Assembly (NCBI GenBank): GCA_025360015.1 | Contig: JANYCZ010000024.1 | Span: forward strand, 1 to 64,000 | Direction: 5' to 3' | DNA length: 64,000 bases | From: Verrucomicrobiota bacterium | GTDB lineage: Bacteria > Verrucomicrobiota > Verrucomicrobiia > Verrucomicrobiales > Verrucomicrobiaceae | Shown here: positions 53,060-57,993 of the stretch, in pieces | How positions within the stretch are numbered: position 1 is the stretch's first letter | Layout: each line of letters opens with the position of its first letter | Notes under the pieces: model-generated | Database searches by the model: none | What the model was told of the DNA's origin: nothing | What the model saw: the letters and a program-made list of their open reading frames with translations, nothing else | Position numbers and translations under genes: made by a program

Positions 53060-53102
53060 GGCGGTGAATTGACTTTACCATGCGTCCTTGTTAAAAAGGC
53101 GC

Positions 53103-53534
53103 ATGGCATTTCCCATTCGTTCTCCTCGTGACTTGGTCGGCGGCGTCGCCGTGTTTGGCCGCATTCTTGATAAGATCCGTCTCAACGCCAAGGAAGGCAA
53201 ACTGCCTGATGGCTATCACTTGGGTTACCTCTCAGGCAGCCGCACGTTTGACGAGCGTGTGTGCAAGTTTCTCGGCGTGGATTTCAATGAACTCTCGGAA
53301 CGCACGCTTGCGGGTGGCACGGATGAAGAAGTGCTCGAATGGTGCTGCCTGAATGGGAACCGGCCCACGGCGGAGCAGATCGAAATCTGGAACGGCTTCA
53401 TGCACAAGCGCGGCTGGCGCGACGCGGCCTCCGCCGGACTCGTGCAGCAGCGCGCAGAGGCGGGCCTCGGCCACCGCGAAGACCTGATCACGTTCTTTGA
53501 CATGATGGATGTCGAAGAAGGCCGCGCGCCTTGA
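53103..53534 (+). CDS. DUF5069-like protein
   Basis: A 143-aa soluble protein. Start MAFPIRSPRDLVGGVAVFGRI and the pieces KLPDGYHLGYLSGSRTFDERVCKFLGVDF and RTLAGGTDEEVLEWC match DUF5069 by recollection of family members. AAAGG precedes the ATG, a weak Shine-Dalgarno. The function is unknown. It lies 43 bp after the secreted DUF1080-like gene, and its stop abuts that of the convergent peptidase gene. Confidence 0.8.
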   Translation: MAFPIRSPRDLVGGVAVFGRILDKIRLNAKEGKLPDGYHLGYLSGSRTFDERVCKFLGVDFNELSERTLAGGTDEEVLEWCCLNGNRPTAEQIEIWNGFMHKRGWRDAASAGLVQQRAEAGLGHREDLITFFDMMDVEEGRAP

Positions 53535-56393
53535 TCAGAGCCCGCGGGGGGCCATGGAGTAGAGGCCCATGGTGACGTCATAGGCATCGAGCAGCGCCAT
53601 GCGTTTCAGTTCATGGCCTGCGCCCCAGGAGTCGGTGAAGATCACCTGGTTCTTGGCCAGGTTGTAGCCGATGACCAATCGCATGTGGCCGCCGCTGACC
53701 TGCCCGCCACCGGGCAGCGGCGGGTCTTCTGGCTTCTCGCCGAGTGACAGCCCCCAGAGCAGCGGCACGCCTTTGTCCGTGTATTCCTTGATGATGGAGA
53801 GGAACTCCTTCTCGGACACCCGCCGCTTGCGATTGGCGGCATAGAACAGCTCAGGATTCACCAGGGGCTTGAAGGTGACTTTGAAGGCACCGTCGATCTT
53901 GGCCAGGCTCTTTTGCATCGTCAGAATGCCAGCTCCGCTTTCGGCATCGACATTGACGAGCTTCGCCATCTCGTGCTGGTCACAGGGAATGCGCATGTAT
54001 TCAAACAAGCGCTGGCAGCTCGCGGCGACGCAGTAGCCTTTCTGCCCCTGATCCACCATCGGCACCCTGGAAATATAGACATCCCCTGCGGGTGTTTTTT
54101 TGACTCGCTGGAGCAGCTCCATGCGCTGCACGCCGGTGGCCATCTTGCCCATGCTCCAGTCGGCCTGGTTCGGCGCGGCGAGTTTCAGCCGCAGAAACTC
54201 CGGCTTCGTCACTTTGCCAGGTGAGTTGTACTCATTGTATTCGAGCAGGGCGATGCCGCCGGGGGAAGTCCAGTTCCATCCCGTGACCGGCAGCGCCGCA
54301 TTGGAAGACATGATCTGCCGCTTGGGAGCCACCTTCATCACCTGGCTGAGGTTCTGGCCGATCAACTTGAAGATACGATCAAATTCCTTCACGTCGATGT
54401 CACCTGAGTCACCGCGATTGTAGAAGGAAATCGTGGCGCGTGCAGCCTTGCCATTCACGAACTCCAGAATGGCTTCTTCGAGTTTGATGGAACCGCCAAA
54501 CATCGTGAGCTTTGTCTCCACGTTGCTGAACATGTGGCGGGAGAAGCGAGCGCGATCCTTCGCATTGCTCACCCATTCGAACTGGGGGGCGGTCGTTGTC
54601 TTTTGTGCATTCTCAGCTTTCACCACAAAGGTTTTTTCCAAGGCATCCGCGTTTGTGTTCCACAGTGACTGGAACGTGAGCAGGAAATCCAGATTTGCCG
54701 CGACGGCTTTTGACGGCCCTTTCGGATCGAAGTCAGCAGGACGGCTGATGGTTAGCGTCAAAGTCTCGCCCTGCTTTTTGGAAGTCTTGACGACGAATTT
54801 TTTCGTCGCCCATTCGAATGAGACAAAGCTGCTGTTGGGCGGTTTGCGATCCACACGACTGACCTTCAACATCTCATCGAGCTTGTTGTAGAGCCACTCA
54901 TCATCGCCGGGTGCCAGCTCTTTTTCGAGCATCCTGAAGAAGATGCTTTTGTTGTCCCCCCAGTAAATGCTGGCATGAATGATCTTCAGCCGTCCCTGCA
55001 TCAAGGTCATCTTGATGTCGGGATTTCCCCATCCCATGATGGTGGTGCTCTCAGACTCTGTCCAAAGTCGATGTCCTGTGTCCTTGACGACATGTGCAAA
55101 GATGGTTTCGATCTCAGAAGGCTCAATGCTCAGCGGATCATTCCAGTTGACCAATGGATCGAGATCTATCGTGTATTTCAAAGTCCCATCAGAGTCAGGC
55201 AAAACCTGCCTCCCCGGGACCGCCGTCGTGCCTGAAGCTGGCACAGTCGCGACGGTGTGACTCCTGGGTTGCTCGAAACGAAGGCCATAACCTGGACGAG
55301 TGGGATACTTGATCAAAGTCGCCCGAAACTCGGGGATGCTCCATGTGTAGGCATAGTCCTGCTCAACGACATGCGAAAACCCAAACATCTTGTCCAGCTT
55401 GAACATGGTCTGCATGGGCTCGATCTCCTGCCCGGCGGCATTTTTCACCCCCACCAGTTCAATGGTGATCAGCTTGCCTTCCTTCCAGTGGAGGAAAAAA
55501 GACGTCAGGTAGTACTGGCCATCCATCATCGAATGCTTGACCTCCGCGCCACCGGCGCTCCTTAAAGGATCGAAAAAGCGGATTTCCTCACCATTTGGCC
55601 TGTGCTCCCGCCTGCAGAGAGAGGCACCAGCCTCGTTTTCGAGAGTTCGCAGCCTGGGGTCGAATGTTTCGACACTGAGGTTCATGGGGGTCTTCCAGTC
55701 GATAAACTCGTCCAGATTGATCGTGATTTCTGCTGCGGCTGCGGGCGTGGGGGTGTCAAGGGTGGGGGTGACAGCCGCGGGTTTTTCAGCGGGAGTTCCC
55801 CTTGGGGTGTTCACCACGGACGGCCCGCCGGTTTTTCGCGGACGAACCGTGACAAAAAAAATCGGGTCATCCACTGATTTTGTAAACTGAGCGCTCGCGG
55901 TGTAGTGCTCTCCGGTCCATTTGTAATTTTTGTTATCGCGTGAAAAGGGAGGAGCGCCCAGGGCATCGCCGATGCTGGCGAGCAATGCTGGCGCGGCCTC
56001 ACTTTCGCCGTCCTGGGCTGTATATCTGATGACAATGTAAGCGATCTGCCCGTCTGCCCACATCACCCGGACTGCCTCGGGCTCGAACTCCTTGCTGCCG
56101 AAGACGAAGTACTTGAGGTTGTTGGCCCGGCTGTAGGTCGAATTAAACAATTGTGACGGCTGCGAGAACTGGGTCGATTTATCGAGGGCGTACCATTTTT
56201 TGCCTGGCACCGGATCCAGTTCATCCAGCTTGGACTCCAACTGTTCAGCGTCCAAGGTGCACTGCTTTTTCCACTCGAACACGGCATCGAAATTGATTTC
56301 GACAGCAGTCCCCCTGCTTTGAGCGCAAACGGTGCTCGCCAGAGCAAAAAGGCCGAAGCATGCACCGACGAGGACTCGCACAAATTTTTTCAT
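53535..56393 (-). CDS. Secreted four-repeat protein with C39/papain-like cysteine peptidase domain
   Basis: A 952-aa protein with signal peptide (to about residue 24). Residues 31-185, 221-375, 405-552 and 563-740 appear to be four copies of one domain: each opens with a strand containing F/L-D plus F/W (INFDAVFEW, INLDEFIDW, IDLDPLVNW, NLDFLLTF), and ends with a Y/F-W then L/F-x-P pattern. The C-terminal 190 residues form a peptidase: MVDQGQKGYCVAASCQRLFEYM has catalytic Cys788, GHMRLVIGY has His903, IFTDSWG has Asp921. A Pro/Thr-rich linker follows the first repeat. The start is the ATG of the signal peptide. The combination is unfamiliar to me. It converges on the DUF5069 gene. Confidence 0.82.
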   Translation of the reverse strand: MKKFVRVLVGACFGLFALASTVCAQSRGTAVEINFDAVFEWKKQCTLDAEQLESKLDELDPVPGKKWYALDKSTQFSQPSQLFNSTYSRANNLKYFVFGSKEFEPEAVRVMWADGQIAYIVIRYTAQDGESEAAPALLASIGDALGAPPFSRDNKNYKWTGEHYTASAQFTKSVDDPIFFVTVRPRKTGGPSVVNTPRGTPAEKPAAVTPTLDTPTPAAAAEITINLDEFIDWKTPMNLSVETFDPRLRTLENEAGASLCRREHRPNGEEIRFFDPLRSAGGAEVKHSMMDGQYYLTSFFLHWKEGKLITIELVGVKNAAGQEIEPMQTMFKLDKMFGFSHVVEQDYAYTWSIPEFRATLIKYPTRPGYGLRFEQPRSHTVATVPASGTTAVPGRQVLPDSDGTLKYTIDLDPLVNWNDPLSIEPSEIETIFAHVVKDTGHRLWTESESTTIMGWGNPDIKMTLMQGRLKIIHASIYWGDNKSIFFRMLEKELAPGDDEWLYNKLDEMLKVSRVDRKPPNSSFVSFEWATKKFVVKTSKKQGETLTLTISRPADFDPKGPSKAVAANLDFLLTFQSLWNTNADALEKTFVVKAENAQKTTTAPQFEWVSNAKDRARFSRHMFSNVETKLTMFGGSIKLEEAILEFVNGKAARATISFYNRGDSGDIDVKEFDRIFKLIGQNLSQVMKVAPKRQIMSSNAALPVTGWNWTSPGGIALLEYNEYNSPGKVTKPEFLRLKLAAPNQADWSMGKMATGVQRMELLQRVKKTPAGDVYISRVPMVDQGQKGYCVAASCQRLFEYMRIPCDQHEMAKLVNVDAESGAGILTMQKSLAKIDGAFKVTFKPLVNPELFYAANRKRRVSEKEFLSIIKEYTDKGVPLLWGLSLGEKPEDPPLPGGGQVSGGHMRLVIGYNLAKNQVIFTDSWGAGHELKRMALLDAYDVTMGLYSMAPRGL

Positions 56394-56520: not shown

Positions 56521-57993
56521 TCACTTCGCCACAACAGCAGGGCGATCTGACATCAGCACATTCTGCAGCGGCTTGGGATAGACGCCGAGGATGAGGATCG
56601 CGAGCGCAAGGGCACCGGCGACGGCTTTGGCGGGAGCTGAGAAGGCCAGCGCGGGGACGTCGGTGCCTTCGGTGGTGTACATCGCGAGGATGGTCTTGAA
56701 GTAGTAATAGAAGCCGGCGGCGGCGGCGATGATGGCGCAGCTCAGGGCACCCCAGTAGCCGTGGTCGGCGAGGCCGAGGAAGACGAAGAGCTTGCCGAGG
56801 AAACCGGCGGTAAGCGGCAGACCGGCAAGCGAGGCGAAGGAGATGGTCATCAGCAGCGCGAGCAGCGGATTGCGTTTGGCGAGTCCGGCGAAGTCTTTGA
56901 TGTCTTCACCCAGGCCATTGGCGCGCATGAGGCCGAGCCCCAGGAAGCCGAGGACGGTCATGGGCAGGTAGGTGGCGAGGTAGAAGGCGACGACGCTGCC
57001 GGAGGAGAGGTCAAAGCGGGCGCTTTCACGGCAGGCGAGCGCGAGGAGCAGGTAACCTGCGTGTGAGATGCTGGAGTAGGCGAGCAGGCGCTTCACGCTG
57101 GTCTGGAACATGGCAGGCAGGCTGCCGAGGAGGACGGTGAGCGAACCGACGACGAGCAGGAATCCCTGAATCTCGCTGCCAATGATGGAGCCTTCGACCA
57201 TGAAGGCATCCAGCGCACGGGTGAGGACGACGAAGCCAGCGGCCTTGGAGCCCACGGAAAGGAAAGCCGTCACTGGCGTGGGGGCACCCTGATACACATC
57301 TGGAACCCACATGTGAAAGGGCGCAGCGGCGACCTTAAAACCCAGACCGCAGAGCAGCACAGCGGCACCGAAGAGAGCAGTGCTTTTGCTGGTGGCAGGA
57401 TTGGCGAGCGCTTTGGCGATGCCGTCGAAGCTCATCGTGCCGGTGGCCCCGTAGATCCAGGCGATGCCATAGACGAGGACGCCGGTCGAAAGAGCGCCGA
57501 GAATGAGATACTTGACCCCTGCTTCAAGGCTGAAGGCGCTCTTGCGGGCAAAGGCAACAAGGACGTAGAAGGAGACGGTGACGAGCTCCAGCGAGACGAA
57601 GACGGTGACGAGATCACGGGCGGAGGCCATCCACATCATGCCCACGCAGACGATGAGCGGCAGGCTGAACATTTCGCCCAGTTTGCCATCGACGGTGAAG
57701 CGCGTGAGATACGGCGCGCATTCGAGCGTGAGCCAAAGTACGAGGATGGTGATGACGAGTGCGAAGCCTTTGTAGAACAGGGCGAGGTTGTCGAGCTGAT
57801 GCCAGGGCCGGATGAAGCCGGGCAGGCTGGCGCTGTCATGCGGCGCAAAGATGAACAGGACGAGCGCGAGCGCGGTGCCCGCGATGGCGGTGAGACCGAG
57901 GGTGCGGCGGGAGATGTCGGGCTTGAAAGCCTCGACCAGCAGCAATGCAAGTCCGAGGAGGGCGAGGCCGGCTTCGATGGTGAAAACGCTCAT
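56521..57993 (-). CDS. nuoN: NADH-quinone oxidoreductase subunit N
   Basis: A 490-aa antiporter-like membrane subunit of respiratory complex I, with about 14 transmembrane segments. Motifs such as FLVVGSLTVLLGSLPAM, LLAYSSISHAGYLLLAL, and PFHMWVPDVYQGAPTPV identify the subunit. It is last in the nuoIJKLMN operon, 7 bp after nuoM. No strong terminator follows within the 127 bp before the peptidase gene. Confidence 0.96.
   Translation of the reverse strand: MSVFTIEAGLALLGLALLLVEAFKPDISRRTLGLTAIAGTALALVLFIFAPHDSASLPGFIRPWHQLDNLALFYKGFALVITILVLWLTLECAPYLTRFTVDGKLGEMFSLPLIVCVGMMWMASARDLVTVFVSLELVTVSFYVLVAFARKSAFSLEAGVKYLILGALSTGVLVYGIAWIYGATGTMSFDGIAKALANPATSKSTALFGAAVLLCGLGFKVAAAPFHMWVPDVYQGAPTPVTAFLSVGSKAAGFVVLTRALDAFMVEGSIIGSEIQGFLLVVGSLTVLLGSLPAMFQTSVKRLLAYSSISHAGYLLLALACRESARFDLSSGSVVAFYLATYLPMTVLGFLGLGLMRANGLGEDIKDFAGLAKRNPLLALLMTISFASLAGLPLTAGFLGKLFVFLGLADHGYWGALSCAIIAAAAGFYYYFKTILAMYTTEGTDVPALAFSAPAKAVAGALALAILILGVYPKPLQNVLMSDRPAVVAK

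Follow-up and report, generated by a model that had tools for sequence, protein, structure and literature searches.

The gene that concerns us here lies in a 64,000-nucleotide stretch of Verrucomicrobiaceae DNA (the window), and it encodes a papain-like cysteine peptidase domain of the C39_2 type preceded by a leader-like N-terminus and four homologous copies of a module that has no entry in the libraries we searched. Relatives of the gene hold the peptidase and the adjoining unit almost constant while the outer units diverge, exchange of an outer unit is seen in two pairs of genomes, and the same module is found at the same chromosomal site on peptidases of an unrelated catalytic class, S16 (Lon-type). 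The reading that we favour, and to which we give about even credence, is that of a conserved exported cysteine peptidase core equipped with interchangeable recognition modules.

The gene occupies positions 53535-56393 of the reverse strand as a single open frame of 952 codons plus stop, directly after nuoL-nuoM-nuoN and convergent with a gene for a DUF5069 protein (Table 1). The frame and its coordinates, the leader and the strings with which the four units begin were all as the preliminary description of this DNA had given them. Read by eye, the protein starts with a Sec-type leader, MKKFVRVLVGACFGLFALASTVCA, with Q as the first residue after cleavage, and leader-like N-termini recur in 17 relatives; going by this leader, we consider export of the peptidase to be supported. 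The genome that carries the gene comprises 6.6 Mb in 79 contigs, and its close relatives have been deposited mostly as Prosthecobacter, Verrucomicrobiaceae or Verrucomicrobia, with one as Akkermansia muciniphila. We did consider a chimeric assembly, which is unlikely since the frame is open, both flanks are syntenic and the genome contains no S16 match. The 2-kb block over the gene (54001-56000) has the lowest G+C content, 0.551, among the 32 such blocks of the window. Scans for promoters and terminators gave results no better than shuffles, and among the window's own neighbours in relatives we saw no conserved partner gene besides nuo and DUF5069.

Table 1. Positions in the window of the peptidase gene, its parts and its conserved neighbours.
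Feature	Position	Strand	Remarks
Whole gene, 952 aa	53535..56393	-	ATG at 56393, stop included; neighbours kept on both sides in relatives
Leader peptide, residues 1-24	56322..56393	-	From the sequence, by eye: cleavage between V-C-A and Q; no lipobox by eye
Unit 1, residues 29-200	55794..56309	-	63.5% identity to unit 1 of the G023 S16 protein
Unit 2, residues 220-387	55233..55736	-	42% identity to unit 2 of the G016 S16 protein; pLDDT 78
Unit 3, residues 406-558	54720..55178	-	Stands where two-unit relatives have their variable first unit
Unit 4, residues 562-743	54165..54710	-	Conserved; adjoins peptidase
Papain-like C39_2 peptidase domain, residues 757-951	53541..54125	-	Profile match under the Pfam cut-off in the window protein; fold match
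Gln782	54048..54050	-	Kept in 64/64 rows
Cys788, expected nucleophile	54030..54032	-	Kept in 62/64 rows
His903	53685..53687	-	Kept in 63/64 rows; the other is a gap in a cut-off copy
Asp921, within DSWG motif	53631..53633	-	Kept in 62/64 rows
nuoN-like gene, directly upstream	56521..57993	-	Anchors the conserved site; synteny in relatives
DUF5069 gene, conserved downstream neighbour	53088..53534	+	Synteny in relatives

Are the four units really copies of one another? The preliminary description had read four tandem repeats of about 150 residues from the protein, and single sequences give little help, since the window's units share just 15-24% identity pairwise and their direct comparison is without significance (best unit-to-unit E 0.1). 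Comparison of profiles, however, joins all four over their full length. Built from four unit families of relatives (3, 3, 11 and 39 sequences for units 1 to 4, the last family retaining last-unit matches of more than 140 residues), the profiles match most strongly for U1-U2 (98%, E 6e-14), U2-U3 (97%, E 2e-11) and U1-U3 (94%, E 1e-7), followed by U3-U4 (91%, E 9e-7), U2-U4 (90%, E 2e-6) and, weakest, U1-U4 (45%, E 2e-4). These matches are collinear across 136-154 columns, and the top score in 60 column permutations per unit pair was 23.5 against the 32-88 observed; the unit families reach at most 1.4% against the C39 and S16 families in the same kind of comparison. Iterated searches seeded by U1 or U2 reached all four units, while one seeded by U3 found itself alone and one seeded by U4 the last units alone. 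A unit model of 26 rows, the window's own units among them, recognises four copies in the open frame and no copy elsewhere in the genome at E <= 0.01 (a separate comparison drew on 26 of the 31 listed unit references). Those 26 rows share an invariant Trp and, in the majority, the start signature LD-x-LIDW-x-x-P-x-x-LT. Repeats at the DNA level inside the gene do not exceed 22 nt, and we therefore regard the units as old repeats of the protein.

The units were also said to be an unknown domain, and here we agree, with no significant match in Pfam, NCBIfam, PADLOC or PHROGs (the last two gave one weak match, E 0.016, at the peptidase end) and nothing significant by sequence in the PDB, where the best of five weak matches had E 0.34. 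Nor did the window protein match the PADLOC anti-phage defence profiles at E <= 0.01, a search that undescribed systems would escape. Structure prediction adds a little. The model of the complete protein is a poor one (pLDDT 53.6) in which unit 1 is not well rendered, and unit 2 modelled alone reaches pLDDT 78; in the model of the complete protein, units 2 and 3 have a near-identical order of elements, namely a strand, a helix, six or five strands, a helix and four strands. Fold matches to the unit all lie below Z 8 (at best 7.8 when the full model is compared and 7.4 for unit 2 by itself) and include unrelated proteins; an integrative model, 9a4o_B, is matched at Z 7.8. DcrB, YjgB (DUF4309), the SAV1118 N-domain, RhsI1 and YdcD give partial matches over about 80-120 residues at Z 5.8-7.6, and at such values, all below Z 8, the matches may reflect a common arrangement only; none of these proteins has a detected sequence match to the unit. 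Foldseek with the full model returned three matches at E <= 0.001, all of them KICSTOR chains, which were discarded at TM 0.07, and unit 2 found nothing in the PDB at E <= 0.001. Against viral models, Foldseek matched three phage proteins (E 2e-4 to 7e-4), of which one is called a lipoprotein and the others are uncharacterised.

The C-terminal assignment to a papain-like peptidase with Cys788, His903 and Asp921 has held up, on conserved residues and on fold. In Pfam the window protein scores 20.9 bits (E 5.8e-4) against C39_2, which is below the cut-off of 24, and four of the five relatives scanned pass it (28.9, 34.1, 41 and 44.1 bits), the remaining one, L062, scoring 23.0. Gln782, which we take to be the expected oxyanion-hole residue, is followed in order by Cys788, His903 and Asp921, and all four are invariant across 18 aligned proteins; the 64 rows of Table 1 are partly dependent, the two rows with Ser being copies of one gene of genome G034 and one row being cut off. 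Modelled residues 765-948 match phytochelatin synthase 2bu3 (Z 9.7, rmsd 4.0, 161 aligned) and residues 776-943 the C39 domain of ComA, 3k8u (Z 8.6, rmsd 3.2, 129 aligned), which gives this part a papain-like fold in a model of low confidence there (pLDDT about 50). The label 'C39' needs some care: it stands in the sense of the papain-like C39_2 family and falls in the sense of the C39 peptidases of ABC transporters, which cleave double-glycine leaders, Pfam finding neither an ABC transporter nor a membrane domain in the protein. As for unusual family members, G034 encodes a C39 protein with Ser at the expected catalytic Cys (L056:6828-8855, reverse strand), and after it comes a protein of two units that lacks a peptidase domain. 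The window's own genome holds a paralogue (L061:2724-4235) with a weak SHD1-like N-terminus, C39_2 and a possible distant unit, for which comparison with the last-unit family gives 15.7% (E 0.0016) and that with the other families at most 1.3%; no unit was recognised in the L062 paralogue.

Units are carried by 47 of the 56 genomes searched and by 30 of 288 sampled across the phylum, and a family of small genomes that we take to be Akkermansia-like has one partial unit match per genome. The open frames that we examined run from a unit to either C39 or S16, or carry a unit without either, and the relatives of the window protein are either about 420 aa long, with a single unit before C39, or about 600 aa long, with two; the four-unit form occurs in the window protein alone among the genomes searched, the G013 gene being interrupted near a contig end. 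A unit adjoins C39 in most relatives, distant families included; none was recognised in L002, L004 and L060, C39 proteins that are more distant still. Seven relatives with a C39 gene 0.1-5.8 kb from nuoN have a single unit, from which it follows that the outer unit is dispensable. Because relatives make do with one or two units, unit 4 plus C39 is, judged by sequence, the core, and units 1-3 are additions, so that the original picture of four equal units has to be revised to one in which the fourth belongs to the conserved core and the other three form the variable part.

The contrast is plain in the 11 proteins (55 pairs) encoded after nuoN, G013 being left out because of its interruption. 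Between the window and the ten relatives, identity is 21-27% in the outer unit and 74-81% in the last unit, rising to 86-92% in C39 and 87-96% in nuoN, and the means over all 55 pairs are 38%, 83%, 89% and 93%, respectively. (Many of the loci L034-L051 and the loci with G handles are the same contigs, so they are not independent and we do not sum their counts.) The orthology of the window's unit 3 to the first unit of its relatives is not clear. Some individual loci are worth recording in their own right. In G005, two C39 genes, each complete and with two units, stand in tandem (L055:3639-7524). L041, deposited as Akkermansia muciniphila under a label that may be wrong, has a one-unit C39 gene and the same downstream neighbours as the window at 83-88% identity. 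Two free-standing unit genes lie beside C39 genes, one downstream of L038 7680 that looks frame-broken at its leader and one (L050:5392-5805) that comprises part of a unit only.

Across the 55 pairs, the identity of the outer unit does not track that of the rest of the protein. Thus L036 and L050 share 98% of C39 and 48% of the outer unit, L035 and L036 share 93% of both the last unit and C39 and 28% of the outer unit, and in L036 and L038 the order is reversed, with 97% in the outer unit and 92% in C39. In the DNA of L034 and L040, five consecutive 90-column segments of the outer unit are 94-100% identical, set between a leader at 61% and a linker at 72%, with the last unit at 87%. In this pair, the outer unit has 16 mismatches in 516 positions and the core 143 in 1161 (P 1e-13); the corresponding figures for L036/L038 are 15 in 495 and 139 in 1158 (P 7e-13). 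Both pairs were picked from the 55 for high unit identity, a selection that can raise P by a factor of 55 at most; seven pairs were chosen from the 55 for the DNA segments, six for dS and dN, and two for the mismatch counts. Synonymous divergence behaves in the same way: for L034/L040, dS is 0.05 in the outer unit and 0.56-0.60 in the core, and for L036/L038 it is 0.09 and 0.32-0.81, respectively. Since unit mismatches and dS lie far below those of the core in both pairs, recent exchange of the outer unit between lineages is the simplest account of these alignments. Two relatives carry restriction-modification genes between nuoN and the C39 gene, a type IIG gene at L037:2929-5796 and a type I/II methyltransferase gene at L043:3234-5813, so other variable genes also enter the site.

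Where might the extra units of the window protein have come from? In G023, the position directly after nuoN is taken by a 796-aa open frame (L052:3607-5994) that comprises a leader, two units and, recognised at E 8.5e-16, a Lon_C (S16) domain; 100 bases past its stop codon lies the start (L052:6098) of a two-unit C39 gene. In G016, too, nuoN is directly followed by a gene for a protein of two units and S16 (L053:3038-5401), and the C39 gene of that genome lies in another place. The leader and unit 1 of the window gene align to the G023 S16 gene, the alignment running through intergenic DNA; unit 2 is closer to the G016 S16 protein than to that of G023; and the G023 C39 protein shares 74% of unit 4 and 90% of C39 with the window protein. 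Pfam finds Lon_C in the L052 and L053 proteins and none in the window protein, and in the window's genome nothing matches S16 at E <= 0.001. The window gene thus reads as the sum of G023's two neighbouring genes minus the S16 domain, a fusion with reshuffling of modules: most likely, a U1-U2-S16 gene was joined to the next U3-U4-C39 gene with loss of the S16 domain. This reading is built on two genomes, G023 and G016, and the reverse order of events, from a four-unit gene to an S16/C39 pair, is possible. Lon-type (S16) peptidases occur in many genomes of the genus (L069-L088), many of them with a leader-like start and without an ATPase domain, and their N-terminal regions differ; in the remaining exported S16 proteins that we fetched, the unit model found no match at the N-terminus, and a candidate C-type lectin in one of them (L080) was dropped when Pfam did not confirm it.

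What, then, would these modules do? That one module is common to peptidases of two catalytic classes favours a role in binding or targeting over one as part of the active site. In the mechanism that we prefer, the core (the last unit plus the C39_2 domain) would do the chemistry, presumably proteolysis, the outer modules would meet a partner that changes and lies outside the cytoplasm, either binding and presenting it or sensing it, and the array as a whole would guide or regulate the exported peptidase. Modules would be gained, lost and exchanged between lineages through recombination at the fixed site after nuoN, with the enzyme retained, and the same type of array could front an S16 peptidase. 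Phage, predator, competitor, kin or the cell's own surface are all candidate partners. The initial suggestion that the repeats recognise a surface or extracellular substrate is, we think, plausible, and has indirect evidence in outer units that are exchanged and divergent and that recur on S16.

A more prosaic alternative, which we hold to be unlikely, is that of a housekeeping envelope peptidase in which the N-terminal units form a pro-region, unit 4 serves as an intramolecular chaperone or inhibitor, and the extra units, duplicates under loose constraint, drift and recombine without any role in recognition. The presence of a unit beside C39 in most relatives, even in distant families, would suit it (leaving aside the three distant proteins in which none is recognised), as would the completeness of one-unit relatives and the dispensable, fast-changing nature of the outer units; relaxed constraint could also yield their divergence, for dN/dS above 1 was not found in the outer unit, the five computable pairs giving 0.15-0.61. 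Such a pro-region has more difficulty with outer units that moved recently between genomes and also sit on an unrelated S16 peptidase, and with their retention of the Trp and the start signature of the unit, when neutral copies should decay more often.

Presence on two unrelated exported peptidases is what one would expect of a targeting module, and hence also of units that tether the enzyme to the surface or matrix of the cell that makes it, their variation tracking strain-specific surface polymers. Pfam, however, finds no carbohydrate-binding or sorting domain, no lipobox is apparent by eye and single-unit forms have no array, so we judge self-anchoring to be unlikely. Very unlikely, in our view, is the idea that the units are inhibitors or immunity-like partners of the peptidase, with free-standing unit proteins inhibiting in trans. 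Free-standing two-unit proteins do adjoin the C39 gene in G034 and G019, and single units in G001 and G012. Among the weak fold matches of unit 2 are RhsI1, an Rhs immunity protein (Z 6.0), and 9j9w_A (Z 7.4); the latter is presumably the immunity protein TsiN, judging by the fold that the paper on it describes. Yet all such matches stay below Z 8 and have unrelated proteins among them, free-standing units occur in just four of the 47 unit-bearing genomes (G013, near a contig end, being uncounted), and of the free-standing copies one looks frame-broken and another is partial.

Recognition by interchangeable modules, our preferred reading, can be pushed further, to a previously undescribed allelic recognition system of the Verrucomicrobiaceae in which cassette modules retarget exported proteases of two unrelated catalytic classes at a fixed site, the driving force being conflict with phages, predators, competitors or non-kin; we offer this bolder version tentatively, as a doubtful proposal. 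A module without an entry in the searched libraries is now defined, and its outer copies have recombined between genomes around a fixed enzyme. If the modules set specificity, nature has furnished a comparative handle on the retargeting of exported bacterial proteases, and with so many alleles in nature the question of specificity can be put directly to the test.

How does all this compare with what is known? No paper on the window protein was found by title in the open-licence literature. With Peptidase_C39_2 (PF13529) the family shares its Q/C/H/D residues, a profile match above the cut-off in four of the five relatives scanned and the papain-like fold matches to ComA C39 and phytochelatin synthase. 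C39_2 proteins are described as single-domain peptidases (PMC10318531), whereas window-type proteins place one to four undescribed modules before the domain. The C39 peptidases of bacteriocin ABC transporters (PF03412) have the same papain-like core, but the window protein lacks an ABC or membrane domain and brings its own leader. Polymorphic toxins (PMC3482391) carry diverse C-terminal toxin domains behind a constant part; the window family, in contrast, varies N-terminally and conserves its C-terminal part. TraA, the myxobacterial kin-recognition receptor, is highly polymorphic between strains (PMC6372800), and here we draw an analogy only, as one strain-polymorphic recognition protein to another: we claim no relation in sequence, and TraA is not a peptidase. 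The exported Lon-like S16 proteins of the Verrucomicrobiaceae (PF05362) have, in G023 and G016, the same type of unit pair at the same chromosomal site, but an unrelated catalytic domain, which the window protein lacks and for which its genome gave no match. Set beside these systems, an enzyme in which interchangeable copies of an uncatalogued module stand in tandem before C39_2 is a new form of a known type.
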